Source: Prorocentrum cordatum
Lineage: Eukaryota; Sar; Dinophyceae; Prorocentrales; Prorocentraceae
Assembly: GCA_963575745.1 (NCBI GenBank)
Contig: CAUYUJ010017804.1
Location: forward strand, 696,839 to 760,838
Reading direction: 5' to 3'
Length of the DNA: 64,000 bases
How positions within the stretch are numbered: the stretch's first letter is position 1; every line of letters starts with the position of its first letter. The position numbers and the translations under genes were made by a program. This document shows positions 32,581-52,906 of the stretch, piece after piece. The notes beneath the pieces were generated by a model. It saw only the letters and a program-made list of their open reading frames with translations. It was not told the origin of the DNA and did not search any database.

Positions 32581-32599
32581 CCGGCTAGACCTTCATCCC

Positions 32600-33115: not shown

Positions 33116-33154
33116 CCCTCTGGATTAGTACGGCGACGGTCAGATACTATATAT

Positions 33155-33385
33155 TTATGTATATATATATATATATATATACACTTATGTGTATATGGAT
33201 ATTGGTATTTGATACCGGGATTGAGATGTTGAGTTATTTATATTTTCACATACATACATACATACATACATACATACATACATACATACATACATACATA
33301 CATACATACATACACATCCATCCATCCATCCATCCATCCATCCATGCATGCATGCATGCATGCATGCATGCATGCATGCATACAT
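33155..33385. repeat. compound (TA)n, (CATA)n, (CATC)n, (CATG)n microsatellite
   Basis: CATA at 33247-33312, CCAT at 33313-33345, GCAT at 33346-33380, with TA at 33160-33182. Three tetranucleotides differing by one base each lie end to end. Confidence 0.95.
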
Positions 33386-33399
33386 ATACACATATAAAA

Positions 33400-33548
33400 A
33401 CGAACGTACGCGTCCGCGCGGAACTCTTGGATCGGCGCTGGGCCCCCCCTGGCGCGCGGAGCGCGCCAAGGGGATCAAGCGCAGATCCAGGAAGTCCCCG
33501 CGTATCTCCGGAAGTGTATGCTTATGCAATATTCTTCGTCCTTGAAGC
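33400..33548 (-). mobile_element. introner A copy, 3' end lost in microsatellite
   Basis: Begins on the minus strand at the donor CAG|GCTTCAAGG directly after the methyltransferase-like exon, carries the family core (GGATCTGCGC, GGATCGGCGCTGG complement), and its second inverted repeat ends at CGCGCGGACGCGTACGTTCG before the CATG repeat. The acceptor end is missing. Confidence 0.65.
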
Positions 33549-34444
33549 CTGCTCCACCAGGCGCGGCGCCAGGTCTTCGCACTGCCCGGTCCAGACGTCG
33601 ATCTGCACGCCCGTCGCCGCGAACTCGATCAGGTTCATTGCCAGGCAAGCGACCTCCGGGTCAAGCTCGAAGGTCACGATCCTGGCTCCGGCGCCGAGCA
33701 CTCGCGCCATTCGGATAGCGGAGTAGCCCAGAAACGTGCCATATTCGACCACGTTGCTAGGTCGCCCCCGACGGGGTAGTCGCTGCAAGACGCCGTCGAT
33801 GACCGCGCCCTTCTCGTAGGCGGCCCCGAATTTCAGCCAGCTCCTCCCCGAGAACTCCTCGAGCGCGCGGAGAATGGACTCGGCGTCGCCGAACGATGCC
33901 CTCGCGAGCGCATGGTAGGCCGCCCGCACGTACTTGTGCGATCCAGCGCCGGCGTCCACCAGCCCTGGGAACGGCGGCGCCCCCTCCAGACTGCTGGCCG
34001 AAGCCGGCAGGCGCCCGGCCAGCTGGTAGGTCAGCGGGTTCCACAGCCGCTCGCGGGCCATCTCCCGCAGGACCCCGCGGGCCTGCTCGAGATCGCCCGC
34101 CTGCTGAAGAAGAGAACGCGGCAGGAACATGAACTTTCGACGGCCCGCGCTGATCTCTTGGATCAGCGCTGGGCCCCCGTCCTTTGCGCCTCCCCAGCGC
34201 AGATCCAAGAAATCCGCGCGGACCGTCGAAAGTTCATGTTTGTGCAGCTGCTTCTCCTTCGAGCCTGGGCAAGGCGCATCACCACCACGTTGAGGACACA
34301 TGCCCTGAGCCCGGGGGACTCACACGACAAGGTGGCCATCTCGCGCAGGACGGCCGCCTGCTCTCGGGGCGCCCCGTCGCGCAGCAGCACGGCGTACCCG
34401 TCCCTGCCGAGGAACCCCGCGTCGCGCGCGCCCTGGCGGACGGC
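33549..34444 (-). CDS. catechol O-methyltransferase-like protein, two exons, partial
   Basis: Exon 34444-34265 (60 codons, AVRQGARDAGFLGRDGYAVL to NVVVMRLAQ) and exon 34103-33549 (185 codons) are joined in phase 0 across an introner (34104-34264). The second exon contains a class-I SAM-binding core typical of COMT-like enzymes: VVEYGTFLGYSAIRMARVL (motif I, YG-x-F-x-GYS), IVTFELDPEVACLAMNL (acidic end of strand 2) and VQIDVWTGQCEDLAPRL. In the family this domain transfers a methyl group from SAM to a catechol or similar hydroxyl. Carboxy-terminal metal-binding residues lie on exons not seen. LRALEEFSGRSWLKFGAAYE precedes the core as in COMT. Both exons are exact multiples of three. Upstream exons may include those at 37.2-37.6 and 43.6-44.6 kb (inference). 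Confidence 0.65.
34104..34264 (-). mobile_element. introner A copy serving as a 161-bp intron
   Basis: Perfect inverted repeat AACATGAACTTTCGACGG near both ends, then the core AATCCGCGCGGA/GATCTGCGCTGG. On the coding strand it starts CAG|GCTCGAAGG and ends TCTCTTCTTCAG|CAG. The only sequence between the two inverted repeats is about 25 bases, so the RNA would fold as one long hairpin. Confidence 0.85.
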
Positions 34445-34568
34445 CTCCGTCAAGGATCGGGCAACAGATAATGGCATCAACATAGGAACCTTCCCGGAGG
34501 TCCGCGCGGATGTCTCGCATTGGCGCTCGTGCCCCGGCCAGGGGCGGGGGATCTACTTACCCTGAGTC
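34445..34568 (-). mobile_element. introner A copy, half, split by LTR-like element
   Basis: Acceptor end on the minus strand (TGACGGAG|GCC) plus GGAGGTCCGCGCGGATGTCT core, stopping at the edge of element E2. The other half resumes at 36881-36955. Confidence 0.7.
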
Positions 34569-34882
34569 TGAGCGCCCTTCTCGGTATCCTTCTCCCACTC
34601 CCTTGAGGCCTCGCACCTCTCGCAGCTTCCGTCAGAAGGGCGCTGCGGGGGTCGGACCAAATCCCCACGAACCTGGCACCGTACGTGCAGTGCCAGGGGT
34701 GGCGGCCCGTCTTCGCATCCCACCATCGTAGGAGGATGCGAAGTCCCTGAAGACGGACCGGGGTGGGCACGAGTGGGCATCGTAGCCGGCTCAAAACCAA
34801 AAGAGGCATCATAGCCTCAAACTGATCCATTTACGGAACCAATTCCATTATCCTGTTCATTGGCTTCATTCCATGCGTAGCA
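34569..34882 (+). repeat. left terminal direct repeat of E2
   Basis: Starts TGAGCGCCCTTCTCGG, ends CCATGCGTAGCA. Confidence 0.75.
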
Positions 34883-36499
34883 CGCTTTCCCCAAATGGAA
34901 CGTGAACGGGACTCAGTCCCCTGCCGATCGTCTAGTGCCGCCATCATAGGCATCAAAAGGGCCATCGTAGGCACTTCGCACCCAATCTGGGCCATCACAA
35001 AGGTTCATTTTAGGAAAAATGAGCATCATAGGTCTTCGCAGTCAACCCGTCGAATCCACGGTGAATACAGCCAGAATTTGAAGAAGGATGTCTACACCTT
35101 CGAACAGGTTCAATTGTCCGGCCCCTACGCTCCGGTGTTCGCCACGACCATCAACGAGTTCAAGGTGCCACGATCAGCACGCCATCGAGCAACACGTGCG
35201 GGACTGGCGGCGTGACGCTGTACAGCACGACGAGCTCGAGCGCCCCGACGGGGAACTGTACCCCATCCGTTCTCCCCCCTTCTTCCCCCGTCCCCTCCTC
35301 CTCCTCCTCCTCCTCCTCCTCTGTCTCCTCGGCCCCGCCTCATCGGAGACGCGAGGGAGGCAGCGCAATAAGGATGAACACATCTGGAAACAGCAACTCT
35401 ACGTTGACATCCGCGCGGGGGACAACAGAGATCAGCACGACCGTTACCAGGAGCGGCACGAAAGAAAGCAGCGGCTCCATGTTGGCAACTGCGAGTGGGA
35501 CCAGCATCGCAACTGCAAGCGGAAGCCCTACATTGACAAACGCGAGTGGGACCCACAACACGACGGAGAGAAGCTCGACCAGTGCCAGGTGCAGCGCGAT
35601 AGAGAGCAGCAGCTCCACGTTGACCATGTCACGTGAGGCCTGCAACTCAGCAGGGACAGCCCGTTGGACTTCAGGGACTCCCACATCAACCAGCTCGCCG
35701 ACTCCTTCGTTCTCCCTCCTGCCCTCCTTCGTTCCCCCTTTTCTCTTCTCCTTTGAACCCATGCGGAGCCGCGAGGCAGGCACACAACAGAGATCAACAA
35801 GAAGGAAGCAGCTGCCCTGCATTATCATCCACGAGCGGATAAGCGGGACCAGTAGCACAACAGAGAGGAGCACGACAGGCACTAGGAGCAGCACGACAAA
35901 GAGTATCAGCTCCACGCTGACAACTGCGAGCGTGACCAACAACACAACTCAAAACATCAACCCTGCATTGACATCGGCGAGTAAGACCCGCAGCACAACA
36001 GAGAAGCACGACTAATACCAGGAGCAGTGCAGCACAACCGAAACGGCCGTTCGACATCAAGGACTTCTTCGTGCTCCTTCCATCCTCCTCCGTTTCCCTC
36101 TTCATCCTCCTACTTCCTCCGTCGCCCGTCAGGGGCCAGCACGAGTATTACCAGCACGACGGGATCTGCAGCACCGCGGCAAAGCACGCGTGTTGCCAGG
36201 AGGATTGGGACTACCAGTACGAGTATGTGCAGCAGCACTAGTGTTACCAGCACGACCCCTGGCCGATATTCGATGGTTAATCTTGACCCCAAGCCGTTGC
36301 TTGTTTTTTTGGCGGATTGGGGGGCTCCATGCGCTTTTTCGGAAATGGTGACTTCGGGCCATGTGGGGGGTCCTCTTGAAGGGCTACCCCGGGTGAGTAG
36401 AAGCAGGGTGTTCGACGGGGGCGCAACGCCGCGAGGTGGCGACGGCTGCGGTGTGATTCCTCGATTGTGGAAACCCCACTCCTTTTGATCGATGGTTCT

Positions 36500-36870
36500 T
36501 GAGTGTCCTTCTCGGGTATCCTTCTCCCACTCCCCTCGGTGAGGACCATTGTAGGCCTTACCAGTGACGACCGCCATGAGGCGTCACACCCCTCGCAGCT
36601 TCCATCAGAAGGGCGCTGCGGGGGTCGGACCAAATCCCCACGAACCTGGCACCGTACGTGCAGTGCCAGGGGTGGCGGCCCGCCGTGCCAGGGGTGGCGG
36701 CCCGCCTTCCCATCCCACCATCATAGGAGGATGCGAAACCCCTGAAGACGGACCGGGGTGGGCACGAGTGGGCATCGTAGCCGGCTCAAAACCATAGCCT
36801 CATCACTTTCCAAATTGAACCACTCACGGATCCGTTTTCCTCTTCATTCGCTTTTTTTCCATGCATAACA
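36500..36870 (+). repeat. right terminal direct repeat of E2
   Basis: Starts TGAGTGTCCTTCTCGGG, ends CCATGCATAACA. Internal 22-bp tandem duplication at about 36660-36706. Confidence 0.75.
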
Positions 36871-36880
36871 TGAAAAGGGA

Positions 36881-36955
36881 ACTCCAGCGCCGATCCCAGA
36901 AATCCGCGCGGACCTTCATACTCATGTCATTCTTTGCTGTTGGCTTCTCGAGAAG
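36881..36955 (-). mobile_element. second half of the split introner A copy
   Basis: ACTCCAGCGCCGATCCCAGA, AATCCGCGCGGACC, then TCATGTCATTC and TTCTCGAGAAG: the right half of the family consensus, missing exactly the part present at 34445-34568. Confidence 0.7.
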
Positions 36956-37065
36956 AACCGTCGCCAAATGTTGTCCAAATGTCGTAATGTCGTCCAAATG
37001 TCGACAGAAACCCGACGAAATCCCCCAAGCCGCAAGGAATTGTGGGGGCCCCTGAGACTCCGGTG
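36955..37065 (-). repeat. dispersed repeat, TCGTCCAAATGTCG type, copy 1
   Basis: GTCCAAATGTCG repeats, then a block ending ATCCCCCAAGCCGCA...TGAGACTCCGGTGAA, matching 38060-38215. Confidence 0.65.
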
Positions 37066-37189
37066 AATCGGCGGCGAGGCCGCGGGAAGCCAGCGCGAGA
37101 CGGCCTTTCCAAAGGTGGCGGGGCTTCTCAGAAACCCTCGCGCCCTTCTGAGAAGCTTCCTCTGTCTCCGGGGAGGGTTCGGAACAAAA

Positions 37190-37620
37190 TCCCCTCAAAG
37201 GCCCGAGGACCTCCGAGCCTTCTGAGAAGGCTGGCCGCCAAGTGGAGGACCACACAACACGGACGGCCTCCACCGAGGACGCGTCGCCGGCGTGGGCGAA
37301 CGCCCGCAGCAGCTGCGTAGCCTGCTTCGCCGAGGCGGGCCGCGAGCGCGGCAGGGCGCCCGCGAGGCTCGCGGCCCAGGCCGGCGGGCCGACGGCCGAG
37401 GCGGCCGGCGGGGCCACCTTGGCCAGGCCCCAGGCCAGCCTGGGCAGGTGCGGGCCCGCCAGCGAGGCGGCGCCGCGCCTCTGGAGGAGTTGCTGAGATG
37501 GGCGCTCTCCCAAAGAGCGGTTCCCGGCGACCCCCGATGGCACTCCGAAAGCTGGTGCTCTGGCGCTGCACTCTGGTCGGCTCTGAGGTCTACAGAGGAG
37601 GAGGAGCGAGCGAGCGAGCA
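37190..37620 (-). CDS. helical-repeat-like exon, function unknown
   Basis: A minus frame reads SQQLLQRRGAASLAGPHLPR, LAWGLAKVAPPAAS, WAASLAGALPRSRPASAKQA and TQLLRAFAHAGDASSVEAVR, then RGFCSEPSPETEEASQKG. The L-x2-LAWGLAK and LLRAFAHAG phrases resemble the about 35-residue alpha-helical repeats of organellar RNA-binding proteins in algae and apicomplexans (OPR/HPR type), which are very numerous in dinoflagellates. Exon borders are not determined. It lies on the same strand between the 43.6-44.6 kb exons and the methyltransferase-like exons. Confidence 0.35.
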
Positions 37621-37794
37621 AGCGATGCCTGGGCAGCTCTGGGTTCTCCTGTGGGGCACCTCCTGGGTTCTGCCACGAGGCTTCAGGCGCTGCTGGCGAG
37701 TGCAGGGGAGTATAAAGAGCACGCCTGTGGGACCTGAGTGGCCCAAATGGGCCTGCTGAGGCCCCCTTCAGCTCACGGGCGGGGCCAATGGATG

Positions 37795-37955
37795 AGGAGG
37801 AGGAGGATGAGGAGGAGGAGGAGGAGGAGGAGAGGAATGAGGAGGAGGAGGAGGAGGAGGAGGAGGAGGAGGAGGAGGAGGAGGAGGAGGAAGAGGAGGA
37901 GGAGGAGGAGGAGAAGGAGGAGGAGGAGGAGGAGGAGATGGAGGAGGAGAGGAAT
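37795..37955. repeat. (GGA)n microsatellite
   Basis: GAG/GGA repeats with AAT and AAG interruptions. Confidence 0.95.
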
Positions 37956-38059
37956 GAGCCTTCGTGGGAGACCCTGTGGACCTCCGCGGCCCTATGTCAC
38001 GAACGCGGCCTCGACCGGATGTCGCCCAGAGTTCGTCCAGATTTCGACGAAATGTCGTC

Positions 38060-38215
38060 TAGACTTCGTGCATATCTCGACCACCCCTCTTCACCTTTTC
38101 GTCCGGATTTCGTCCAGACTTCGCCCAGAATTCGTCCAAAAATCGACAAAATCCGTCGACATCCCCCAAACCGCACGGCTTTCTGGGACCATCTGAGGCT
38201 CCCGTGAAGGACTAC
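38060..38215 (-). repeat. dispersed repeat, copy 2
   Basis: TTCGTCCAGACTTCGCCCAG-type repeats followed by GACATCCCCCAAACCGCA and CTGAGGCTCCCGTGAA, alignable with 36955-37065. Confidence 0.65.
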
Positions 38216-38825
38216 GCAAGGCGCCTCGCAACATCCGACGCCAGGCGGTGACCGAGGCCGTGCAGGCCGCCCATCTGCAGCGTGGCTGCAGCCCAGGCGA
38301 GGCTCGCCAGGGATGCGACGGGCAGGCTGGCACAAGGCTCGACCTAAACCGTGGCTTCTTGCAGAACGTACAACCCACCTCCACCTGCAACCAGGACCCC
38401 CACTCCCGACCTGGTGATCCAGAGGGCCCAAAAACCATGCTCGCCCCAGCTAGGACACCCTGGACCACCAGGTCGGGAAGGGGGTCCTGGCTGGGGATGG
38501 GGGTAAGTTATGCTGTCCTGAGTTGTCCGTGCTCGCTTTGTTATTGCCTCTTTTTGTCGACGTTTAGCTGGTGCTGCAATAAGCAAGGTTAACCAACGTG
38601 GACCCCAAACAGTGCTTTTCTACTAGCAATCCGCCGGCTCCCTAGCGGGGCCATCAGGCTGCGAGGCTTAGGCTTGCTGCTCCCTGCTCCAGTTGCAGGG
38701 TCCAGTTCCCATGTTATGATAATTTCACTTACTGCTTCCTACTGCAACCTGGTACAATCCGCGCAATGGGGGGGAGCCCCAAACGACCCGATTAACCACG
38801 CCCTGATCGAGGAAATTGCATGAGA
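38216..38825. other. no gene recognised
   Basis: Unassigned. Confidence 0.4.
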
Positions 38826-39060
38826 CTCGCGCCCCCGAGGCCAGAATCCCTCGTGCATTGAAAAAGGTTCGCGTCCTGGAAGCCATAACCCTTCGTATAT
38901 TTTGCAAATGGTGCGTCCCCGAAGCCACTAACCATCGTATCGTAAACTACAGTACTCGCGTCCCCAGGGCAACACACACTCTCATAACTTACCGTCGCGT
39001 CCCCGAAGCCAAAACCTTAGCAAATTACACCGTCTTCGCATTGCCGAAGCCAAGAGTGCT
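38826..39060. repeat. 57-bp tandem repeat (four to five units)
   Basis: Units start CGCGTCCCCGAAGCCA or a variant and continue with AAACCTTCGTA-like AT-richer sequence. The 57-bp length keeps one plus frame open, giving repeats of TRVPEA. Confidence 0.7.
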
Positions 39061-40464
39061 CCAAGGCGCCCGAAGATTATTTTCAGACGGCCCAAGAGGG
39101 CCCAAAGATGCCCAAAGAGCGCTCCAAGAGGCCTCCCGAGAGAGCCCCAAGAGGCCAAACCCGCAGATTTTACGAAGGTTGTTGAAGCGTTTTGGCCTTC
39201 TCGCATGTTCAGCTTTCCGACGCTTCAAGACGGCTCAAGAAACTCCCAAGACCGCCCCAAGACAGCCCAAGACGCCTCCAAGAGGGCCCCAAGACGGCCC
39301 AAGAGGGCCCCAAGATGGCCCAAGAAGCGCTCAAGACGGCCCAAGAGGGCCCCAAGAGGGGCCCAAGCAGGGGACCACGAGAAGTCCCCAGGAGGCCCGA
39401 AGAGGCCGCCAAGAGGCCCCAAGAGGGCCCAAGAGGCGCCCAAGAGACCTCCAAGAGGCCCAAAAGATACCCCCACGAGTCCTCAAAAGGCACCCAAGAG
39501 GCGCCCAAACCGCCTCCAAAAGGCCCCCGAGAGGCTCCCCACGGCACCCCAGGCGGTGGCGGAATGGGCCGATGGCCACTAGGATCCGCCGCCCCCTGCT
39601 TGCAGGGGTGCACGGCGTGCTGGATGTTTCAGGTTTTGGTTTTGGTTCTTTTTCTAAAAAAACTCCCCAGTGGGCTTCGGCCCGTCCCGCCGGCCACCCG
39701 TAATTTTCCCAAAATCCGTCTGTCAATGCCTTTGTTGCCCCAACTTGGCCCAAGATGGCCTCCAAGACGGCCAAGATGGCCCAAGATGGCCTCCAAGATG
39801 CCTCCCAGACGGCCAAGATGGCCTCCAAGACGGGTAAGATGGCTCCAAGATGCCTCCAAGACGGCCCAAGATGCCCTCCAAGACGGCCAAGATGGCCCCA
39901 AGATGCCTCCAAGATGGCCCAAGAGGCCTCCAAGACGTTCTCCAGGAGAGCCCGAAGAGGCCAAAATCATTGGTTTTCCTTAGGTTTTTGAAGGTTTTTT
40001 GCGTTTTCTTCTTTTCGGCCTTCCGACGGCCCAAGAGGCCCCCAAGATCGCCCAAGAGGCCTCCAAGAAGGCCCTATGACGGCCCAAGGGCCCCCCAAGA
40101 CGGCCCCAAGAGCGCCCCAAGACGGCCCAAGAGGCCTCCAAGACGCCCAACATGGCCTCCAAGACGGCCCTGAAGCGCCCCAAGAGGGCCCCAAGACGGC
40201 CCAGAGAGGCCCCCAAGACGGCTCCAGACGGCGTCAGACGGACCAGGAACGCCCTAAGACGGCCAAAGAGACCCCCAGGAAGCCCCCAAAGGCCCCCAAG
40301 AGGCCCAAGGAGGCCCCCAAGATGCCTCCAAGAGGCCTCGAAGAGGCCCCCAAGAAGCCCCCAACAGACCCCAAGGGTGCCCCAAGAGACTCCTAACAAC
40401 CCTCATCCTCCTACTCTATTTCTTCCTCTTCCTCTTCCTGTTCATAATCATTCTCTCCCATGTG

Positions 40465-40725
40465 TTCCCCGAAAGCTTTCCAAACCGACTCGGGGAACTC
40501 ATGGTCCGATAGCTTGGCCAAGCTCTAGTCCAACTTTCGGCCACATCGGCGTTTCCAAAAAGGCAGGGGGCGGCGGTGATTCGCCGTAGGCGTCTTCGAT
40601 CCGCCGCCCCCTTTTGATTTATCAAAGGGGTGCCCGGCGTGCCGGACTATATGGCTATTGATGTTGGTTCTTTTTCCAAAAGAACTCCCCCTGGGGCTTC
40701 GGCCCGGCCCGCCGGCCACCCGAAG
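40465..40725. repeat. cassette between satellite modules, copy 1
   Basis: Order: GAAAGCTTTCCAAACCGACT, GGTCCGATAGCTTGGC, a hairpin with 13-bp stem CAGGGGGCGGCGG/CCGCCGCCCCCTG-like at 40564-40612, GGTTCTTTTTCCAAAAGAAC, then CTTCGGCCCGGCCCGCCGG. Confidence 0.85.
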
Positions 40726-42766
40726 ACCCGGTTGCCAACGGTGTTCCTGCCCCAGACGGCCCCAAGATGGCCCAAGATGGCTTCCAAGACGGCTAAGATG
40801 GCCCTAACATGCCTCCAAGACGGCCCAAGATGCACCCAAGACGGCCTAAGATAGCCTGAAGATGGCCCAAGACGGCCCAAGAGGCCCCCAAGAGGCATCC
40901 AAGACGGCCCAAGAGGCCTCCAAGAGGTCCTCCAGGAAGGCCCAGAGAGGCCCAAACCACTGATTTGTCTTAGGTTTTTGAAGGATTTTGGCATTCGCGC
41001 CTTTTCGGCTTTCCGGCGGCCCCAGGCGGCCCAAGAGGCTCCCAAGATCGCCTCAGAGGCCTCCAAGAGGGCCCCATGACTGCCCAAGTGGCCTCCAAGA
41101 CGGCCCCAAGAGGGCCCCAAGACGGCCCAAGAGGCCTCCAACACGCCCAAGATGGCTTCCAAGACGCCCAAGATGGCCTCCAAGACGGCCACTAAGCGAC
41201 CCAAGAGGGCCCCAAGTCGGCCCAGAAATGCCCCCAAGACGGCTCAGACGGCGTCAGACGTGCCAGGAACCCACCAAGATGGCTTGCGCCTTGAAGGCCC
41301 CGTCTTTAAACTGTAACCTTTAACCCACCAAGATGGCCCAAATTGGCTCGAAGCTGGCCCAAGACGGCCCAAGAGGCCCCAAAGAGGGCTTCCAGGAAGG
41401 CCAGAAGAGGCCAAAAACATTGATGTTCCTAAGGTGTTTGACCGATTTTGGCATTCGCGTCTTTTCAGTTTCCGACGGCCCTAGGCGGCCCAAGAGGCTC
41501 CCAAGATCGCCTCAGAGGCCTCCAAGAGGGCCCCATGACTGCCCAAGTGGCCTCCAAGACGGCCCCAAGAGGGCCCCAAGACGGCCCAAGAGGCCTCCAA
41601 CACGCCCAAGATGGCTTCCAAGACGCCCAAGATGGCCTCCAAGACGGCCACTAAGCGACCCAAGAGGGCCCCAAGTCGTCCCAGAAAGGCCCCCAAGACG
41701 GCTCAGACGGCGTCAGACGTGCCAGGAACCCACCAAGATGGCCGACATTGGCTCGAAGCTGGCCCAAGACGGCCCAAGAGGCCCCAAAGAGGGCTTTTAG
41801 GAAGGCCAGAAGAGGCCAAAAACATTGATGTTCCTAGGGTTTTTGACCGATTTTGGCATTCGCGCCTTTTCGGTTTCCGACGGCCCTAGGCGGCCCAAGA
41901 GGCTCCCAAGATCGCCCCAAGATCGCCTCAGAGGCCTCCAAGAGGGCCCCATGACTGCCCAAGTGGCCTCCAAGACGGACGGCCCCGAAGCGACCCAAGA
42001 GGGCCCCAAGTCAGCCCAGAAAGGCCCCCAAGACGGCTCAGACGGCGTCAGACGTGCAAGGAACCCACCAAGATGGCCGAAGTTGGCTCGAAGCTGGCCC
42101 AAGACGGCCCAAAAGCATTGATGTTCCTAAGGTTTTTTTACGGATTTTGACATTTGCTTCTTTTCGGCCTTCCGACGGCCCGAGACGGCCCACGAGCTCC
42201 CAAAGATCGCCGAAAGATCGCACAAGAGGCCTCCAAGATGGCCCCAGAACGGCCCAAGAGGGCCCCAAGAGGCCCCCAAGACGGCACAGGAGGCCTTTAA
42301 GACGCCCAAGATGGCCTCCAAGACGGCCCAGGAGCATTCCAAGAGGGCCCCAAGTCGGCCCAGAAAGGCCCCCCAAACGGCTTCCGACGGCGTCAGACGG
42401 ACCAGGAGCCCACCAAGACGGCCGAACATGGCCTAAGATGGCCCAAACGGCCCAAGAGGCCTCCAAAAGGGCCTCCAGGAAGGCCCGGAAAGGCCAAAAT
42501 CTCCCGTGGGTTGTTGAAAGATTGTGGCATTTGCTTTTTGTCTGCCTTCCGACGGCCCGAGACGGCCCAAGCGCCCCCAAAGATTGCCCAAGAGGCCCAA
42601 GACACGGCCCCAAGAGGCCCCCAAGACGGCCCAAGAGGTCTCCAAGACGCTCAAGATGGCCTCCAAGACGGCCCAAGAGCCCTCCAAGACGTCCTCCAAG
42701 AAGGCCCGAAAGGGTCAAAATGGCCTCCAGACGGCCAAGATGACCTTCACGATGCCCACGTGGTCC

Positions 42767-43020
42767 CCGAAGGCTTTCCAAACCGATTCGGGGAACAAAT
42801 GGTCCGATAGCTTGGCAGGTCTGGCCTCAACGTTCGGCCACATAAGCGCTTCCAAAAATGCAGGGGGCGGCGGTGATTCGCCGTAGGCGTCTTCGATCCG
42901 CCGCCCCCTGTCGATTCATCGCAGGGGTGCCTGGCGTGTTAGATTATTTCGGTTTTAGTTTTGGTTCTTTTTCCCCAAGAACTCCCCCTGGTGCTTCGGC
43001 CCGTCCCGCCGGGGTCCCGG
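42767..43020. repeat. cassette between satellite modules, copy 2
   Basis: Same parts in the same order as 40465-40725, with the hairpin at 42861-42910. A partial third copy, without the first part, is at 39580-39702. Confidence 0.85.
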
Positions 43021-43160
43021 GAGGGAGCTCCAGGCGTGCAAACGACCTCCAAGACGGCCAAGATTGCCCAAGATGGCCTCCAAGATGGTCCAAGATGGCC
43101 TCCAAGACCGCCCAAGATGGTCCAAGATGGCCTCCAAGACGGCCTAAGAGAGTCCAGGTA

Positions 43161-43400
43161 GATCAGATTTTCTGTTGAGACAAAATCATATTATGTATAT
43201 GACGTCTACACAACTCTCTCTCTATAGATATATATATACACACCTATAAAACACACATGGGCATGTCTATATCTATGTAGATATAAGGTTCTGTACATAC
43301 ATTATGCATGTCTATATGTCTGCATGCATGCATCTATGTATATATATATATATATATATATACATGCTTACACATACACACACAAGCCGTGCAATTTACG
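43161..43400. repeat. TA-rich microsatellites
   Basis: TATATA at 43222-43240 and 43338-43362 with TGCATG and CACA repeats between and after. Confidence 0.9.
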
Positions 43401-43404
43401 TTGT

Positions 43405-43535
43405 GCACTTTAGGCGGCGACGGGGCGGCGACGGCGAGCACGGAGCCGCCAGACCGACAATCAGGCCCAGACGATGGCCGGCGACGGGGAGGCGACGGCG
43501 AGCACGGAGCCGCCAGACCGACAGTCAGGGCCAGT
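43405..43535. repeat. 63-bp tandem duplication
   Basis: GGCGACGGCGAGCACGGAGC followed by CGCCAGACCGACA and TCAGG occurs twice, 63 bases apart. Confidence 0.85.
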
Positions 43536-43575
43536 TCCTTAAAAGAGAAGAAGGAACCCCGAAGTGCAAGCACTG

Positions 43576-43636
43576 TTTAGGGAATCGAAACGAAAACGGC
43601 CCACGGAATCGCCAAACACCGTTTAGGTCGAACCCT
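43576..43636. mobile_element. MULE-like MITE of the 15751 type, right half
   Basis: ATCGAAACGAAAACGGCCCA, CGGAATCGC and AAACACCGTTTAGGTCGAACC match the right half of 15751-15895. It abuts the end of the coding exon at 43640. Confidence 0.65.
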
Positions 43637-43639
43637 GCT

Positions 43640-43709
43640 GGCAATGGCCTGCTCGTTGAGGGCCAGCGCCCAGCACCGCAACAGCGCCAAGTCCTCCGCC
43701 GCTAGCGTG

Positions 43710-43755
<46 letters not shown>

Positions 43756-44610
43756 AAGGCTTCCGCGATCCTCCACCGCGAGAGTGGCGTGGGCGAACAC
43801 AGCCTCCACGAGGCGCCTGGGCTCCAGCGCGCGCCACGCGGCCGCTGACGTGTCCCCCAGGACCGACAGCAGCGGGCCGTGGAGCACCTTTCGGGAACCA
43901 GACGATGGCGTAAAGATGAACTTTCGGAGGTCCGCGCGGATTTCTCGGATCGGCGCTGACCCCCCTGGCTGCGCCGTAGGCGCCTCCCCTGGCGCGCTCT
44001 GCGCGCCAGGGAGGGAGGGGGGTCCAGCGCTGATCCAAGAAATCTGCGCGGACCCCCGAAAGTTGATGCTTGTGTCATCGCTTGCTCCCCGAACCTTGGC
44101 GCGAGCCAGCGTCGCCGAGGCCTCGACGAGGCTCTGCAGGACCGCCGGCCGCAGCGACGCCGCCACGCGCGCTGGACCGCCCAGCACCGCGGCGAGCTCG
44201 TGGGCACGCAGAGCCCCGCACGGCCCGAGTGGCGCAGGCCTGCCCCTGTCGCGGCCCTCCTGGCGCACGGCGTCGGCCACCGCCCGCGCCGCGGCGGCGA
44301 CGGCGCCGTGGCGGGCCCCGCCCGGCCTCGCGTCGCGCCCGTTGCCCTCGCCGCGCGCACCTGTGCTGGCGAGCGCCGCCGCGCCCGGCGCCTCCGCCGA
44401 GCCGGGGCGCGGCCATGCTCGGCGGCCGGTGGCCGACGCCGCCGACCGGGCGCCGCGCGCGAGGCGGACCCCGCGGGCGCGGAGGCCGCGCCGCATCGGG
44501 CGCGGCGGCCGCGGGCAGGCGGCCCCGCTCGGCCCAGAGGGGCCTCGGGCATGCGCGCATGCGTTTCCTCTTACGCGCCAGTGCCAACAGCCAGCGGGCA
44601 GCAGAAACAA
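43640..44610 (-). CDS. organelle-targeted helical-repeat-like protein, 5' exons
   Basis: Exon 1 is 44610-44095, 172 codons from an ATG. Its first about 70 residues (MFLLPAGCWHWRVRGNACAH...) are rich in Arg and Ala with almost no acidic residues, as in mitochondrial or plastid transit peptides. Then RAHELAAVLGGPARVAASLR and LQSLVEASATLARAK. After an introner (43888-44094), exon 2 continues in phase 0 with VLHGPLLSVLGDTSAAAWRA and LEPRRLVEAVFAHATLAVED. A GTC microsatellite then shifts frame, after which LAAEDLALLRCWALALNEQA continues. The leucine/alanine helical pattern resembles FASTK/HPR-type organellar RNA-binding proteins; this is a pattern call only. The gene may continue to 37 kb and beyond. 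Confidence 0.45.
43708..43755. repeat. (GTC)n microsatellite inside an exon
   Basis: About 15 GTC units. Protein-like sequence on its two sides is in different frames, so either the tract has changed by a non-multiple of three or an exon border lies in it. Confidence 0.9.
43888..44094 (-). mobile_element. introner A copy serving as a 207-bp intron
   Basis: Starts AAG|GTTCGGGGAGCAAGCG, ends GTTCCCGAAAG|GTG on the coding strand. Inverted repeats with AACTTTCGGAGGTCCGCGCG on one side and GCGCGGACCCCCGAAAGTTG on the other. The interior holds an extra palindrome, GGCGCGCTCTGCGCGCC. Confidence 0.85.
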
Positions 44611-45332: not shown

Positions 45333-45725
45333 ATGCGCTTCGCCCTGAACACCTTCGTCCACCAGAAAGCGAATGACCACGTGTACATCTTCCTCTGCGT
45401 GTGGGAGAACAACCGCGTCTACAACCCTCTCCACCTAGGAACGATCAACACGGATTACAAGCACTTCGACTCATCGCGGTGCACATCGACGAGAATATCA
45501 TCAAGTCACAAGCTTACGAGACTAACCCACTCTGCCTGGAGATCTACAGGCAACCACGCCGAGACCAAATACGACGAGGACGAGTATCAGGCAGCAGAGA
45601 CGGTAATGGAGGCTGGTTGAACAGATGCCTAAGCAGCACATCAGGTCCAACCCAATCGTGGAACAGAAATACGTGATCATAGAGGTACCTTCCGATGGCG
45701 CAGACGGCCTCCCGAACTAGACCTC
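45333..45725 (+). pseudogene. unrecognised protein gene, frameshifted
   Basis: ATG at 45333: MRFALNTFVHQKANDHVYIF, LCVWENNRVYNPLHLGTINT, DYKHFD. Protein-like sequence then shifts to another frame (LIAVHIDENIIKSQAYETNP, LCLEIYRQ), returns to the first (KYDEDEYQAAETVMEA) and ends in a third with LVEQMPKQHIRSNPIVEQKY and VIIEVPSDGADGLPN before TAG at about 45718. The composition is balanced, with many aromatic and hydrophobic residues, and cannot be a repeat artefact. I know no family for it. Three frame changes in 130 codons mean a pseudogene, sequencing errors, or very short introns. The heptapeptide-repeat gene starts just downstream on the same strand. Confidence 0.45.
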
Positions 45726-45738
45726 CATCCAGTGCTAC

Positions 45739-46840
45739 GATGGCCACCTGGGATGGACTCCAAGACAACGGCTTCCAGAGCTACGACGGTTACGACGGCC
45801 ACCTGGGCTAAGGCCACGAAGGCTACGAAGGCTACAACGGCCGCCTGGGCCACGGCCACGACAGCCACAGTCGCCTCCAGGACTCTGCAGGGCGTCCACA
45901 TCCCAGGCGAGGAAGCGCGAGACTGGCTCTGGTTCGTCCCCCCCTACCTCAGACACGGCGCGGCGATTGTGTGGACGACAACTTCGAGCCACTGGCCGAG
46001 CTACGAGGGCCCACAGCTGAGCGTCGAGACGCTACCAGTCGAACTACGCGGGCCACCTGCAGGGCTACGACGGCAAGAAGCAGAGCTTCGAGGGCCACCA
46101 GCAGAGCTGCGAGTGCCACCAGTTGAACTACGAGGGCCACCAGAAGAGCTACAATGGACAGAAGCAGAGCTTCGAGAGCCACCAGCGCAGCCACGAGGGC
46201 CACCAACAGAGCTTCAAGGGCCATCAGCGGAGCTCCGAGAACCTCCCGCAGCGCTACTACGGCAAGAAGCACAGATTCGGCAACTGGCCGCAGAGCTACC
46301 AAGGCGACCAGCCGAGCTAAGACGACAGGAAGCAGTGCTTCGAGGGCCACCGCCAGCAGAGCAACGAGGGCCACCAGCGCAGCCACGAGGGCCACAAGCT
46401 CAGCTTCGAGGGCCACCAGCAGAGCTTCGCGAACAACCTGCAGAGCTACGAGGGCCGCCAGAAGAGCCATGACGGCAAGAAGCAGAACTCCGAGGGCAGC
46501 CAGAAGAGCTACGAGGGCCACCAAAAGAGCTTCGAGGGCAATTCGATGAGCTTCGAGGGCAACCAGCTGAGCTACGAGAGCCACGGGCAGAGCTTCGAGG
46601 GCCAGACCCACGGGCGGAGCTTCGACGGCAGGGCTACGCAAGAAGCCGCAGACGGAGCGTCGAGCCACTGGCAGAGGTTCGAGAGCCACCAGCGGAGCTT
46701 CGAGAAACTGTCGACCCTGACCCGCCCGACCTCCCGGAGGAGTGGGCTAGCGCGCTGGACACGTCCGGAACAAGGTACTACAGCCTATACGACCACCATT
46801 CGTGGAGGGAGAAAGAACCGATGGCGGTGATGATGACGGT
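45739..46840 (+). pseudogene. heptapeptide-repeat protein with carboxy-terminal WW-like domain, damaged
   Basis: From ATG 45739: MATWDGLQDNGFQSYDGYDG, then TAA at about 45808, then GHEGYEGYNGRLGHGHDSH in the same frame. From about 46030 the same frame runs to TGA at about 46828 with one TAA at 46318, and encodes about 30 tandem heptads of the form S-[FY]-E-G-H-Q-[QKR] (for example SYEGHQKSFEGN). Near 46705 a shift to another plus frame gives DPDPPDLPEEWASALDTSG, TRYYSLYDHHSWREKEP: two Trp 20 residues apart, the central YY pair and a closing Pro, as in WW domains, which bind proline-rich peptides. The Gln/Tyr/Gly heptads suggest a disordered or self-associating scaffold. Function is inferred only from these parts. 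Confidence 0.5.
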
Positions 46841-48290
46841 GCTGGTGATGTTCCATCGAGTGGGCGACGACGAGTGGTGACAATGCTGCGTGGCGATGTG
46901 GTCTCACTGTCGGTCCCACTCGATCGAGCTCACCATCGAGACACCACCAGGGCACGATGAGGCCAAATAAATGCCACCACTACTGTGCTGTGATGGTTGA
47001 TGCTACGTGTGATGGGTGGCTGCTGATGGCAAAGTGATGGCCGCAGTGATGATGAGTGTGGCGGCCACAGCAAAGAAGTAGTGCTGAATACGATTGGAAC
47101 ACCATCGGAACACGATCAGGCCAAATAAAAGCCACCACCACTGCGCTGAGATGGCAATGTGACGATGCGACACCAACGGGACTCCAATCGGGACACTGAC
47201 GGAACATCATTCGCTCAATATGACAGTCGATCCCGTGGCCAGTGATGCTGACATCGAAAACCGTTTGGCGTATCGGGTTCTCTGCGATCCGCCCCCCCAA
47301 GCCTCACTATTGACACCACCAAAACACCATCGAGACACCATCGAAGCACCACCAGGACACCATTAAAACACCCATTGGGACACCAATCGGGACACCATCG
47401 GAGCACCACTCCGGGCACCGATCGGGACACCACCAGGACATCACCGAGACACTATCGAAACGACACCACGACACCATAAGGACACCAATCGGGACACCAA
47501 TCGGGACACCAATCGGGGCACCACTCAGGACACCATCAAGTCACCATCGATCTCACGATTGATCTCAATATCGATATCAATATTGGTGCCGCTATCGGTC
47601 TCACTCGATCGCTCTCACCATCGCTCTCCCTCGATCGATCTCCTTTTTATATCACTCAAAATATCACTGATGATCCCGCTCCCGCTATCGATATCACTAT
47701 CGGTATCACTATCGATCTCAGCGCGGAACAAAACGGGACACCGACAGGACTCCAACGGGACACCGAAGGGACACCCACGGGACACTCGCAGGACACCGAC
47801 GGGACACAGCAGGAGACGATCGGCACACGATCGGGAAACCAATCGATCGCACTTTCGATCCCCCTATCGATCTCACTCGCTCTATATAACTATCGATTTC
47901 ACTCGATCGATCTCACTATCGATAACACTCGATCGATCTCACTACCGATATGACTATCGTTGTCACTACCGATCTCGATATCGACCTCACTATCGGTCTG
48001 ACGGTCGATCTCAACATCGATCTCACCACGGGACACCACAGGACACCGACGGAACTCTCGCGGGACACTGACGGGACACCGACGGGACACCACGGGACAC
48101 CATCGGGGCACCACTCGAACTCACGTTCGATCTCGATCTCACCATGAGTCTTATTATCGATATCGCTCGCTCGATCTCACTATCGAACTCATTCCCGGCT
48201 TCACGATCGACCTCGCCATCGGTCTCACCACGGGACACCGACGGGACACTGACAAGACACTGACGGGACACCCGGGCAGCCAGGATGATG
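46841..48290. repeat. short tandem repeats: GGGACACCATC and ATCGATCTCACT types
   Basis: 46841-47560 and 48020-48270 are rich in CGGGACACCAATCGGGACAC. 47560-48230 is rich in TCGATCTCACTATCGATATC. The two alternate. Units of 9-13 bp are imperfect. No gene. Confidence 0.85.
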
Positions 48291-48866
48291 CCGATGTCAA
48301 CCTTGGTCGAAGCCGAGGTCGGTGAAACTGGTACATTGGCTTGAACTGTTCTGTTCGGGTGGTGCGATGATGCGCTCACAAGACCAGCCAGCACAATCGC
48401 ACACGTACCGAGACACGGCGCTAGCCCAGGATGGAGCCTCGCACCCGTGCCCGACGCGAAGCTGCGGCCAGTGCCTGTGGGGTTGCAATGGGTCGAGGAA
48501 CGTCGTGGCGCTCCTGTGAGCGAGCCGTTCCTCATCGCGGTTGCGCCTTTTGCTATTGCCCTCGCACGCGGACCGGATGACCAAAGCGAGTTGCCAGTTG
48601 GTTTGCGCAACAGCCATAAGCACAGGCAACTCAGGGAGCGGAAGATGGTATCAATGCGGAGGTGAAGGTAAACGCAAATTTGCGTCCACACCGCACTCTT
48701 CGCACGTTCCGTGGATGGCAAACTGGGCTCGCTCCAAGCTCCACTACCAACTAGAATTACGGGGGGGGGAAGCTGCACGAGAGAAATAATGACGCCAATA
48801 AGATGTACGTTGCGGGGCTCTGATTTTCATACAGTAAGTAGATCTGCGTCGACCTTGTAGATTTGA
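48291..48866. other. no gene recognised
   Basis: Open frames on both strands, none with a domain. Confidence 0.4.
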
Positions 48867-48912
48867 GTGAGGAGGAGGAGGAGGAGGAGGAGGAGGAGGA
48901 GGAGGAGGAGGA
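48867..48912. repeat. (GGA)n microsatellite
   Basis: Perfect GAG repeat. Confidence 0.95.
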
Positions 48913-49117
48913 GGCAGAAGAAGAGGTACCGACCCCTCAGGCGGCGAAGGCCGCCTGGGGAGAGTGAGGGCACTCCGAAACCTGCAGTGGCAACTAGAGA
49001 GAGCCGCGCCCGGCCGATTTCGCCGCGCCCTCGCCGGCAACCTGCGCAGGCGGCCGCCCCACCTGCTGGCATGACAGAAGCGGGTCCCGAAGGAAACGGG
49101 TGCTGGACCAAGGGCCT

Positions 49118-49523
49118 TCCCCCAAGGCCAGGTGTTCATCCTGAGCTGTATTTTCTGGCAGTCCCGGGGCCCGTGGAGGGGCCCGAGAAGCGGAAACGCG
49201 GCGACAAGCCTCAGGACCCGTGTCTCGAGGACCTCCGACAGCCGACAGTTTCTGCTTACGTTTTTTGTTGCCCGAGTTTCCCATTTGACCCCGGGGCCCC
49301 TTTTCCTTCATGGCGAGCCTGGCGCTCCAAGCGCGGCGCGGGCTCCCGGTGGCCTGGCGCCTCCGCCCTCCGCCAGCGCAGGCGGCGAAGCGTCACCGAG
49401 ACGCGGCGGCCGGGCGGCAGCGGCGACCCGTCCTGCGGGCGTTCGTGAGGGGGGGGCTGTAAAGGGAAGGAGCCCAAAAAGGTTCCGACCAGCGCCCCGA
49501 GAGGCCGAAACACGGCGACAAGC
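49118..49523 (-). repeat. duplicated exon-like segment, paralogue of 52907-53345
   Basis: Shares with 52907-53345, in order, CAGGT-TTCATCCTGAG, GACAGTCC/GGCAGTCC, CCCGAGAGGCC-like and TTTCCTTCA-GGCGA. The phrase GGCGACAAGCCTCAGGA occurs twice inside it (49199 and 49515), so the segment is itself partly tandem. A scrap of introner A (GACCTCCGACAG...ACAGTTTCTGCTTACG) is at 49229-49258. On the minus strand it reads as Arg-rich possible coding. Confidence 0.5.
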
Positions 49524-49733
49524 CTCAGGAGCACGTTCATGCGGGCATGAATTAAACCTATAATCTGTCGGAGGTCCGCGCGGATTTCTTGGATCGGCGC
49601 TGGACCCCCACTCAGGCGCGCGAAGCGCGCCAGGGGAGGCGCCAGAGGAGCCGCCAGGGGGCTCCAGCGCCGATCCAAGAAATCTGCGCGGACCTCCGAC
49701 AGTTTGTGTTTGTATTTCTGTTTCTCGAGATTC
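49524..49733 (-). mobile_element. introner A copy
   Basis: Inverted halves CTGTCGGAGGTCCGCGCGGA and TCTGCGCGGACCTCCGACAG, both with the GATCGGCGCTGG/CCAGCGCCGATC core. Coding-strand end CTCCTGAG|GCTTGTCG is a usable acceptor; the other end offers only AAGG|GAATC, a GA-type donor. Confidence 0.7.
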
Positions 49734-50259
49734 CCTTAGGGCCGTGGTCGGCGACCGACCCGTCCTGGGATGACCTCAGGGGCCCTAACAGAAACCCTTT
49801 CGGGCTCCCGCAGAGGCCTTGCGGACCGCGGGAATGGGGCGAGAGGGGATCGGGCGAACATGTGTTTTTCCATCCTGGGGAGTACGGTGTGCATGGCGGC
49901 GCCACTTCAAGGTCACGCCTGTGGGGAGGGGGGATCGGGATATATGGTGAGCATCCCCTGCCGCGCGCTTGCTCGCGCCGCGTGCCCGCGCCGCGCCGGG
50001 TGAAGAAAGGGACCCTAAAAGGGGCCCTCGAAAGGCCCTGCAGGGCCCCCAAAGGGGGTCCGAAAGGGCTCCTTTGGAGCCCCGTTCTTCCCCCCCCTTT
50101 GGGTCCCCCTTTAGGTCCCCCCCCCTCATTGACGATCACCCCCTTTACGTAGGTCACCCGTTTGGGTCACCCCTTTCTTCCCCCGCTGCAGGTCACCTCC
50201 CTTTAGGGTCCCTTTCCTCAACCTCCCTTTAGGACCCGCCGTCAGGTGGTCACCCTCCC
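49734..50259. other. no gene recognised
   Basis: CCCCTTT/AAAGGGG-rich at 50010-50250. Confidence 0.45.
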
Positions 50260-51127
50260 TTAACGACCGCCCGAGTCCTGCGGGCTCCAGTGCGGCCCAG
50301 CTTCGATGCCGTGGCGCCAGCGCCAGCGCGCCTCTCCTCGAGGCCTCCCAACTGGGGTTCCAGCCGATGGGGTCAAAGGATCGCGCCGCCTGGAGAAAAT
50401 CTGGCTCCGCATCGGTGATGCATCGCAGGACCTTGCATGGGCGACGTCGGCGTGAAGAAAATCGGGCTCCGCATCGAGCCGCATCGCCGACGCATCGGCG
50501 ATGCGGCGCGATCCTCCGGCCCCAGCCGCTCTGACCCCTACAGGAGGGTTAGGTCTCCCGACAGCACGTACGCCGAGCCGCCCTCCAGGAGCACCGAGCG
50601 CCGCGGGCACTCTGCGAGCCTACGCGCGTCGACGGGCTCGAGGTCCATCACCGCGGCGGCTCCGAGGCTGAAGCCGACGATGACGTCGTCGAAGGTGGCC
50701 CGGTCCACGTGCATCGGTATCAGAAGGACAAAGAAAAGCATAAACATAATCATTCGGGGGTCCGCGCGGACTCCTCGGATCGGCGCTGGGCCCCCTTGGC
50801 GGCGCCTCCGGCGCCGCCCCTGGCGCGCTCCGCTCCGAGAAAGCCACACGGACCTCCGAAAGTTAATGTTCATGTCACTGTTCGCTCCCCGAGGTTAGGG
50901 CGACGGGGTCGATACACATCCCCCGCCGCTGGCCAGGCGCATCCTGAGCCCAGGAGCGGTGCATATGCCAACCTGGCCAAGCCAAAGGGGCCCAGGGTGG
51001 CCCGGCCAGCGGCGGTGAATATGCACACATCTCGTCGCCCCTGAGGTATGCCCTGCCCTGCATCGGCGTAGTTGTTCACGATGGCCTGGTCGAACGCGTA
51101 CCCGCTGGGCACGAGGCCACCGCCCTG
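50260..51127 (-). CDS. AlkB-homologue (ALKBH-type) 2-oxoglutarate/Fe(II) dioxygenase, three 3' exons
   Basis: Exon 51127-51050 (26 codons): YAFDQAIVNNYADAGQG, the strand leading into the active site (family pattern F-x-Q-x-IVN-x-Y-x-x-GQG). Exon 50720-50568 (51 codons): IPMHVDRATFDDVIVGFSLG, with the His-x-Asp iron ligands, then AAVMDLEPVDARRLAECPRR and SVLLEGGSAY. Exon 50331-50260: ARWRWRHGIEAGPHWSPQDS ending TAA; RHGI supplies the distal iron-binding His region. All exons are phase 0. The last intron has GT...AG. The first ends in a TCCCCTCCAG acceptor from an introner B. The middle intron (50721-51049) is flanked by ATACC on both sides instead of GT/AG. The family demethylates or hydroxylates nucleic acid bases; which ALKBH subgroup is unclear. 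Amino-terminal exons are not located; 53460-53572 is a candidate. The arginine pair that binds 2-oxoglutarate was not identified. Confidence 0.7.
50721..50895 (-). mobile_element. introner A copy inside the ALKBH-like gene
   Basis: AAGCATAAACATAATCATTC and its partner AAAGTTAATGTTCATGTCAC, core GGGGTCCGCGCGGACTCCTC and GGATCGGCGCTGG. Its 3' end on the coding strand coincides with the start of the HxD exon, but ends TTCTG rather than AG. Confidence 0.75.
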
Positions 51128-51309
51128 CTGGAGGGGAAGAAAACGGAGACCATGACCAAGGCTGAACGCGGAAACGTCGTTTCGACCTTGGTCACCGTCC
51201 ATCCTGATCAGCGTCAATTCGTGGATCATCTTCGCGAGTGAGCGACGGTCGACGTGGACCATGGCCGATACTGTCACTGGCAAGATCCCGCGACATCTTG
51301 GTCATGGTC
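51128..51309 (-). mobile_element. introner B copy 2, upstream of an ALKBH exon
   Basis: Perfect 13-bp inverted repeat GACCATGACCAAG (51148) and CTTGGTCATGGTC (51297). On the minus strand it ends CCGTTTTCTTCCCCTCCAG|CAG, an ideal acceptor, directly before the YAFDQ exon. The donor may be at the element edge or at GTGAGT near 51341. Confidence 0.7.
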
Positions 51310-51684
51310 CCCGAGGGTACAGAAAGCAACTCACAGAAGCTGTTGGTAATCCCCCCCATGGCGCACCAAATAGCACGCCCAATCGCACGCAAAGCAGACA
51401 TACTGCATCTCCCTCACATGGCGCTGTTGGTCGGGCGCTAGTTGGGCGCTGTTTGAGTGCAATCCGGCGCGGTTGGGCACTATTGGAGCGCCATTCGCCG
51501 ATTTACATTGAAATTCAATCAAGGCGAGCGGAACCTGCCATGTGCTTTACTGCCTGCGTGTTCCTCCCCCCTCTGACCTGCAGCCGCGCGAGCGCCCCCG
51601 CGCAGGCCTCCAGCACGGAGAGCGGCGGCGCGGGTCCGCGCGCCACAGGGGGCTGCGGCGGGCACGCCTCGAAACCATGGCTTT
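51310..51684. other. no gene established
   Basis: Minus strand around 51345 has ACAGCTTCT|GTGAGT, a strong donor that may close another exon of the ALKBH-like gene, but no family residues are readable. Confidence 0.3.
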
Positions 51685-51891
51685 GGACGCCCGAAATGGG
51701 TACGGAAAAAATGGGTACAATGCCCAACAACAAATGTTGTCCCAAACCAACGGCGGCCGCTGTTGGGCAGGCGGCCTTCTGTCTCGAATGGACACAGGCC
51801 GCGGCGGCGTGGACAGCGAATCCTGTTCAAAATGAAGAAGAACTGCTGTTGGGCATTGTACCCACTCTTTTGGTACCTATTTCGAGCGTCC
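51685..51891. mobile_element. inverted-repeat element, family C copy 2
   Basis: About 45-bp terminal inverted repeats: GGACGCCCGAAATGGGTACG ... GGGTACAATGCCCAACA on the left and TGTTGGGCATTGTACCC ... CGAGCGTCC on the right. A possible 5-bp duplication ATGGC lies outside. On the plus strand it would begin G|GACGCC and end GAGCGTCCAG|, so a GA...AG intron is conceivable. Confidence 0.75.
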
Positions 51892-52702
51892 AGAATGGCG
51901 GTGCACGCCGGGGTGCGTCACGACCGGCCGGCCGCTGCTCGGCCGCGCGTCGCCCAGCGCCGCGCCAGCGCCGGCCTCCGCGGCCTCCAGCAGCAGCGCC
52001 GCCTCCTCTCAGCGGACGTACAGGGCAGTCTCTAATACATCGGATTTTTCGAATATGGGATTTTTGATACATGATTAATTGTGAATGAACTTATGCATGA
52101 ACTCATCGTTGTTGTTACTACTAAATCCCTGCATTTTTTTATACATGATCCGCACACGGAGCATGTATTATAAACGGCACTGTAGAAAGGTGTCCACGGG
52201 GCGGCAGGAAAGTTTATCATACCCTCACGGTGGCACGTCGGGGCATCGACTCTCCAGCCGCCCTGGGGCAGGCGCCCCCAGCCAAGGTTTGGTTATACCA
52301 CTATGAGTCCCCTCGGATCTGACGCTGCAGAACATTGCAACATCGCAGAGGATCACCACCCGAGCCCCAGACCCCATCTGTCTGCGTCATTTCTCGAGCC
52401 GGGTCAATCCGCGAGTGTCCAGACACCCGACATCGGGGGAAGACGCCCGGCTTGAAACAGATTGCAACGCCCAAATCTGAGGGTCGGCCACTCCTCGGCG
52501 CCCAGGAAGGCCGGCAGGTACACGAAGCCGTCGACCGGCGACGTGGCCCCCCGAAGCAGGGCGCGGCCCTGGGGCGCTGCACCCACGATCCCCTCGGCGC
52601 CAGCCGCCTCGCGAGCCGCCCGCCCCGTGGCCCGCGGCTCCTCCTCTTTAGCATGAAGGAAGCGGGTCCTGCGGGGGACTGGTCCTGGATCCCAGGGCAT
52701 TC
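51892..52702 (-). other. coding-like stretch after introner, unassigned
   Basis: Just past the acceptor TTTTTCCAG| at 52703 the minus strand stays open in two frames (ECPGIQDQSPAGPASFMLKR or MPWDPGPVPRRTRFLHAKEE, then PVDGFVYLPAFLGAEEWPTL). The frame continuous in phase 0 is the first. No domain. 51892-52300 holds nothing recognisable. Confidence 0.25.
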
Positions 52703-52906
52703 CTGGAAAAAGGCCAAACAGCACCAACATAGACTTAGGAGCTCCGCACTGGTTTCTTGGATCGGCGCTGGGCCCCCCTAGCGGCGCCTCCGGCGCCGCC
52801 CCTCGCGCGCTCCGCGCGCCAGGGAGGGGGGTCCAGCGACGCTCTAAGAAATCTTCGCGGACCTCCGCGGAAAAGTGTTTACGCACTTTGTCGCTCCTCC
52901 ATGGAC
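52703..52906 (-). mobile_element. introner A copy with GT...AG ends
   Basis: Coding-strand donor GACCTTGAG|GTCCATGGAG and acceptor GGCCTTTTTCCAG|GAATG. Core TTCTTGGATCGGCGCTGGG and CCAGCGACGCTCTAAGAAAT; the second arm is more diverged. A nested palindrome GGCGGCGCCTCCGGCGCCGC lies inside. Confidence 0.75.

Follow-up and report, generated by a model that had tools for sequence, protein, structure and literature searches.

A family of inverted-repeat elements in Prorocentrum cordatum that probably creates introns, with splice sites drawn from a duplicated target

Many transposon-like introner families are reported to drive intron gain in dinoflagellates, for example in Polarella glacialis (review, PMC11453091). 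The introners of Symbiodinium microadriaticum carry inverted repeats, produce 4-bp duplications and co-opt the 5' splice site, whilst in Florenciella both splice sites are recruited at the point of insertion (Gozashti et al. 2022, PMC9860276). Introner elements with inverted repeats near both intron ends have already been reported in the published genome of Prorocentrum cordatum, which has 59.7% G+C and uses GC (51.4%), GT (24.7%) and GA (23.8%) as splice donors (PMC10666404). In Amoebophrya A25 and A120, non-canonical introners form a hairpin that joins the exon ends, with direct repeats of 3-5 nt and no GT-AG borders (Farhat et al. 2021, PMC7789003). An intron with donor TC and acceptor AC was found by comparing genomic DNA with cDNA of an alkaline phosphatase gene of P. 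minimum (PMC4548154), the older name of P. cordatum (PMC10666404). Here we analyse a 64,000-nt stretch of the genome of P. cordatum, an alga that forms blooms, referred to as the window (assembly GCA_963575745.1, contig CAUYUJ010017804.1, positions 696,839 to 760,838 of the forward strand). A preliminary description, right in its guess of a dinoflagellate host, had proposed that the ends of one inverted-repeat family, here called family A, are the splice sites of several genes. We find copies of family A that appear to fill two introns of a COMT-like gene, and a further copy that interrupts an AlkB-like gene.

The 20-base core given in that description, GGTCCGCGCGGATTTCTTGG, matches the window 12 times at up to 3 mismatches, against 0.02 matches expected from shuffles. 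The family comprises 7 copies, 1 copy split by about 2.3 kb and 1 weak fragment, in line with the earlier count of at least seven copies or partial copies with a common core. A profile built from the 7 copies, which recovers those 7 by construction, also matches both arms of the split copy (36951-36876 and 34541-34456) and the weak fragment near 17125-17185 (E 0.014); its match to a stretch near 49226-49284 is not significant (E 1.6). The copies have long, GC-rich terminal inverted repeats with an arm consensus of approximately TCGGAGAACAAAAAATGGCATAAACATAAACTTTCGGAGGTCCGCGCGGATTTCTTGGATCGG. A 5-nt target duplication is clear in three of the eight copies (AAGGT, CAGGC and ATACC), and one of about 8 nt is suggested at 52703. 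The exact core pattern has no match in viral contigs, a near form of it has none in contigs of prokaryote genomes, and Rfam gives no match on the window at the gathering threshold. All eight copies lie within two gene spans that cover about 58% of the window (the AlkB-like gene taken by its annotated span); the chance of this is about 0.01 by simple arithmetic on spans picked after the fact, and enrichment in introns within the window is weak. Taking the explanation as a whole, we consider it very probable that family A is a short non-autonomous DNA transposon of P. cordatum, resembling miniature inverted-repeat transposable elements (MITEs) with long terminal inverted repeats, and that it makes introns on insertion, with splice sites coming from the duplicated target.

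The genes were laid out with homologues from other dinoflagellates and with short transcript-like contigs (1.9-2.6 kb for 545-765 amino acids for COMT; 0.9-1.1 kb for 250-345 amino acids for AlkB), which are presumably transcripts. Three annotated P. cordatum proteins, P0001, P0020 and P0022, align to the window in pieces that are identical or nearly so (about 100%) outside the exon joins. No other match exceeds 64% identity and no P. cordatum transcript was found, in searches run under length limits, two of the three scoring the 8000 candidates that had most words in common with the query. At 16 introns, the GT-AG, GC-AG and GA-AG pairs near the border that are in frame and stop-free were enumerated, and the resulting protein was scored against a profile of homologues. 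The COMT-like gene and the copies of family A at its exon edges are the following.

11003..44205, minus strand: COMT-like gene, 11 exons laid out, 614 amino acids in frame, N-terminus not defined
43888..44094, minus strand: copy of A forming predicted COMT intron 1 (207 nt, GT-AG, 5-nt duplication AAGGT; profile match, seamless splice 802.4 bits)
34101..34264, minus strand: copy of A forming predicted COMT intron 6 (164 nt, GC-AG, 5-nt duplication CAGGC; donor shared with annotated P0001)
33396..33549, minus strand: copy of A at the donor side of COMT intron 7 (33548-32124), its 5' end being the donor CAG/GC of that intron (a slash marks the splice border); the P0001 exon ends at 33549

The COMT-like gene has an O-methyltransferase domain and one PPR-like match under the Pfam cut-off; the first read-through Pfam scans turned up the methyltransferase alone, and an early hand-joined version matches Methyltransf_3 (E 5.3e-8). 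Its introns are as long as 14 kb. At introns 1 and 6, one copy of A and a 5-nt repeat make up the entire intron, and the repeats AAGGT and CAGGC cover both splice sites. The GT-AG pair of intron 1 ranks top of 105 canonical candidates and the GC-AG pair of intron 6 top of 132, each being equal to the seamless join. The intron 1 join, RAK/VLHG, is free of gaps in the 12 homologue rows covering it (P0016, which is not aligned there, was left out), and the segment after the intron 6 join is kept in 14 of 15 rows, P0015 lacking part of it. Judged against these homologues, the canonical join at both introns restores the predicted protein, and both introns are presumably spliced in the cell. Their terminal inverted repeats are equalled in 0 of 500 shuffles, and as RNA they fold into hairpins with z of -14.4 (intron 1) and -12.8 (intron 6), better than any of 200 shuffles each. 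The 3' end of the copy at intron 7 passes into microsatellite DNA.

The borders of intron 1 are those of the preliminary description (44094/43888, AAG/GT ... AAAG/GTG). For the copy that it had placed at 34104, the donor CAG/GC at 34264 holds, and the acceptor was 3 nt off: the best position is 34101 (802.4 versus 798.3 bits), the second CAG being part of the target duplication. It had also held the exons to be in phase 0 and multiples of three; the three junctions with A in the COMT-like gene do fall between codons, as deduced from exon lengths, and multiples of three are not general (101, 211, 106, 104, 163 and 59 nt). The donors 34264 and 33548 recur in P0001, which is annotated in P. cordatum as an unnamed protein and resembles O-methyltransferases. 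Its annotated model starts at 34483 (minus strand), inside a copy of A.

We propose that insertion of A would duplicate 5 nt of target. Where the target is AGG followed by a pyrimidine, as in CAGGC and AAGGT, the upstream duplicate would provide the donor AG/GY and the downstream duplicate the acceptor AG/, while the purine-rich outer arm would provide a pyrimidine-rich tract at the 3' end, whichever the orientation. Splicing out A would then restore the transcript exactly. Transposition would have depended on an unseen transposase, and the gain would have occurred in the P. cordatum lineage. Because the 5-nt repeats span both splice sites, the signals appear to lie in the duplicated target and mainly not in the element ends, where they had been placed before. 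Creation of an intron by A is well supported, as far as sequence can tell, for COMT introns 1 and 6 and, at intron 7, for the donor side. The earlier claim that the family creates introns survives at these sites; it is not supported at 52703, and at 50721 it is supported only in altered form, the gene being interrupted at a place where no canonical pair yields an uninterrupted protein.

Further copies of A lie away from exon edges, and one of them has an empty relative.

34456..36951, minus strand: split copy of A, arms 36951-36876 and 34541-34456, within COMT intron 5 (37267-34445)
16661..16869, minus strand: copy of A within COMT intron 9 (17532-14608), off its edges
49542..49725, minus strand: copy of A (previously placed at 49524) within AlkB intron 6 (50277-49433), off its edges
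52704..52901, minus strand: copy of A (previously placed at 52703) nested in repeat C (~52651-52988), between two annotated P0022 exons
49069..49191, minus strand: copy of repeat C without an insertion of A, an empty relative of the 52703 site by flank matches

The insert of about 2.3 kb in the split copy contains direct repeats of about 300 nt that are 80% identical. The copy at 52703 had been described as an intron at exon edges, with borders GAG/GT...CCAG. On the 5' side its flank is similar to 49191-49113 (76%, E 1e-10) and on the 3' side to 49120-49069 (77%, E 5e-6); because these matches run on without a break, the copy is nested in another repeat, and we rejected it as an intron. Aligned as wholes with gaps, the two regions score 116, narrowly above the largest of 200 shuffles (107). 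The copy stands upstream of the first AlkB exon supported by homologues, its intron location being given by annotation only, and the AlkB homologues P0019 and P0021 have no tblastn match at 52703.

Across the 16 introns surveyed, a canonical pair yields the exact seamless protein at 13. Another canonical pair scores slightly higher at COMT intron 5 (803.1 versus 802.4) and at AlkB intron 3 (216.4 versus 214.6). The 13 canonical, seamless introns have a border direct repeat of 6.7 nt on average, compared with 3.6 nt for mismatched ends (permutation p 2e-5), and the difference persists when COMT introns 1, 6 and 7 are omitted (7.4 versus 3.7 nt, permutation p 2e-5). For all 16 introns the values are 6.5 and 2.6 nt (p 5e-5), with the join at three of them placed on the basis of the repeat. 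Inverted repeats lying no more than 60 nt from each intron end were compared with 500 mononucleotide shuffles, uncorrected for 16 tests: they exceed all shuffles at COMT introns 1, 3 and 6 and AlkB introns 2 and 5, are weaker at AlkB intron 6 (p 0.008) and borderline at COMT intron 5 (p 0.050), and are not significant at the remaining nine introns. Since the repeats are significant at other introns too, the two genes between them hold several intron-associated inverted-repeat families, of which A is one. AlkB intron 4 is among the nine because its ends belong to two different hairpins, as listed here.

49376..52541, minus strand: AlkB-like (2OG-Fe(II) oxygenase) gene, 7 exons laid out, 205 amino acids in frame, both ends not defined
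50894..51049, minus strand: second hairpin element, B, which differs from A and occupies the 5' half of predicted AlkB intron 4 (51049-50721)
50720..50893, minus strand: copy of A (previously placed at 50721) in the 3' half of that intron, where no canonical pair yields an uninterrupted protein

An early hand-joined version of the AlkB-like gene matches Pfam 2OG-FeII_Oxy_2 (E 5.4e-12). The sequence ATACC precedes B, AACC stands at the joint between B and A, and ATACC follows A, as would be left by two insertions into one target. All six seamless joins at this intron are non-canonical (AT-TG, TA-GA, AC-AT, CC-TA, CT-AC and TC-CC). The intron RNA folds with z of -8.6, better than any of 100 shuffles, and in this model two adjacent hairpins would bring the exon ends close together. 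The arms of this copy of A differ from the family consensus by 0.21-0.22, against 0.16-0.27 for COMT introns 1 and 6; the divergence being about the same, the copy does not look younger. The gene is annotated as two, P0022 and P0020; the tail of P0022 is frame-shifted, and P0020 starts at 50873 (minus strand), inside a copy of A.

Either the elements of intron 4 are removed non-canonically, or they add residues to the protein, or the gene is a dead copy. We rate not far below even the chance that this gene is a dead copy, or an allelic one, disrupted when B and A inserted, given that no canonical pair provides an uninterrupted protein and that the annotation divides the locus. Speaking against a dead copy, all 7 exons are open and conserved; the open frame is weak evidence of function, because some simulated copies also keep it (51% of them when 5% of sites are substituted, 23% for 10% and 7% for 20%, with 1500 copies per level and substitutions only). 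More tentatively, P. cordatum may remove hairpin elements from transcripts even where the insertion site gives no GY-AG, in which case the two hairpins on one ATACC target would be cut out by a non-canonical route guided by structure, with borders precisely at the duplication; we regard this as possible rather than probable. The TC-AC intron of the alkaline phosphatase gene is a precedent in this species for removal at non-canonical borders. It is unlikely that the intron is removed by a GA-AG or GC-AG pair with element-coded residues staying in the protein. Introners that add codons are known (PMC9860276), and 309 in-frame, stop-free canonical pairs exist at this site; the best reaches 228.3 bits, compared with 247.0 bits for the seamless join. 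The best six of the 309 add 21 to 53 residues. Among these are element-coded residues and a hydrophobic stretch immediately ahead of the H-x-D motif, a place at which none of the 10 aligned homologues carries an insertion.

For family A as a whole, it is quite improbable that the copies are ordinary MITEs that mostly landed in existing large introns, COMT introns 1 and 6 being old introns taken over: five of the eight copies do lie inside introns or another repeat without being whole introns, and introns of the two genes reach 14 kb, but in those two COMT introns nothing is left over on either side once the element and its duplication are accounted for. Several observations weigh against our preferred reading, that insertion of A creates introns. 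A whole intron, with borders matching on both sides, is made by only two of the eight copies; one more touches a splice site, on one side only, and five have no usable splice sites at their borders. Clear duplications are likewise confined to three of the eight. No transposase was found, and no scan of the whole window aimed at one was made. Finally, P0001 places the acceptor of intron 6 51 nt downstream, losing 17 residues; because these are kept in 14 of 15 homologues, we take the annotated acceptor to be either an alternative site or an error of the model.

Other features of the two genes were noted in passing. COMT intron 3 (43636-38326, 5.3 kb) has terminal repeats GGTTCGACCTAAACGGTG / GGCTCGACCTAAACCGTG, with a similar pair, judged by eye, near 15751-15893; a non-canonical join was rejected there, because the GC-AG pair 43648/38338 scores the same 802.4 bits as the seamless join. 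Within this intron, 39100-43150 consists of several kb of degenerate short repeats resembling CCAAGACGGCC. AlkB intron 2 (51899-51682) is another hairpin element, with duplication GCCAT; by eye, there seems to be a sequence like it near 16915-17145. A GC-AG join of this intron at CACC/GC...AAAG/CC puts the reading frame out, apparently the situation in P0022. With a profile of 3 homologues, the best canonical pair of this intron is 5.6 bits below the seamless join; with 8 homologues and a wider search it is 2.0 bits below, through added residues in a variable loop. The introns 37267-34445, 32045-17668 and 50277-49433 have exact direct repeats at their borders, 12, 13 and 11 nt in length, which exceed the 5-nt duplications of A. 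Apart from these genes, an open frame of 1139 codons (60584-64000, minus strand) runs to the window end and contains a reverse transcriptase domain (RVT_2, E 8e-11), which marks it as a copia-like retrotransposon.

The COMT-like gene offers a base-resolved example of how a transposon may make a harmless intron, the duplicated target giving both splice sites, and the locus suggests a weakness of dinoflagellate gene annotation that is open to testing. Should AlkB intron 4 indeed be removed with no GY-AG pair, introner removal of the Amoebophrya type would extend to a core dinoflagellate that lives freely. Annotation that admits GT/GC/GA-AG borders alone would in that case split genes where such elements lie, as here, which might account for a portion of the broken models in large dinoflagellate genomes.

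In the accessible text of the literature on dinoflagellate and Prorocentrum introners we found no description of family A, and we do not claim its absence from print. The survey in PMC10666404 searched for patterns inside annotated introns, whereas annotated models here begin inside copies of A and one AlkB gene is split in two. Like the introners of PMC9860276, family A has inverted repeats and a short duplication, takes its splice sites from the insertion site and would leave the mRNA unchanged; unlike them, it has a 5-nt duplication and long GC-rich arms and belongs to P. cordatum. The likeness to the introners of Polarella glacialis and other dinoflagellates lies in their being transposon-like families that drive intron gain. 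AlkB intron 4 resembles the Amoebophrya introners in its hairpins, its short repeats and the non-GT-AG borders of its predicted seamless joins. However, Amoebophrya is another lineage and its introners are backed by RNA-seq, whereas AlkB intron 4 is read from sequence and most borders here fit GT/GC/GA-AG. The nonconventional introns of euglenids are alike in having a stable structure that joins the intron ends and variable borders; they belong to another phylum, with no sign of a shared origin. Family A is best seen as a further example of the introners already known in P. cordatum, one copy of which may be of the rarer, Amoebophrya-like non-canonical type.

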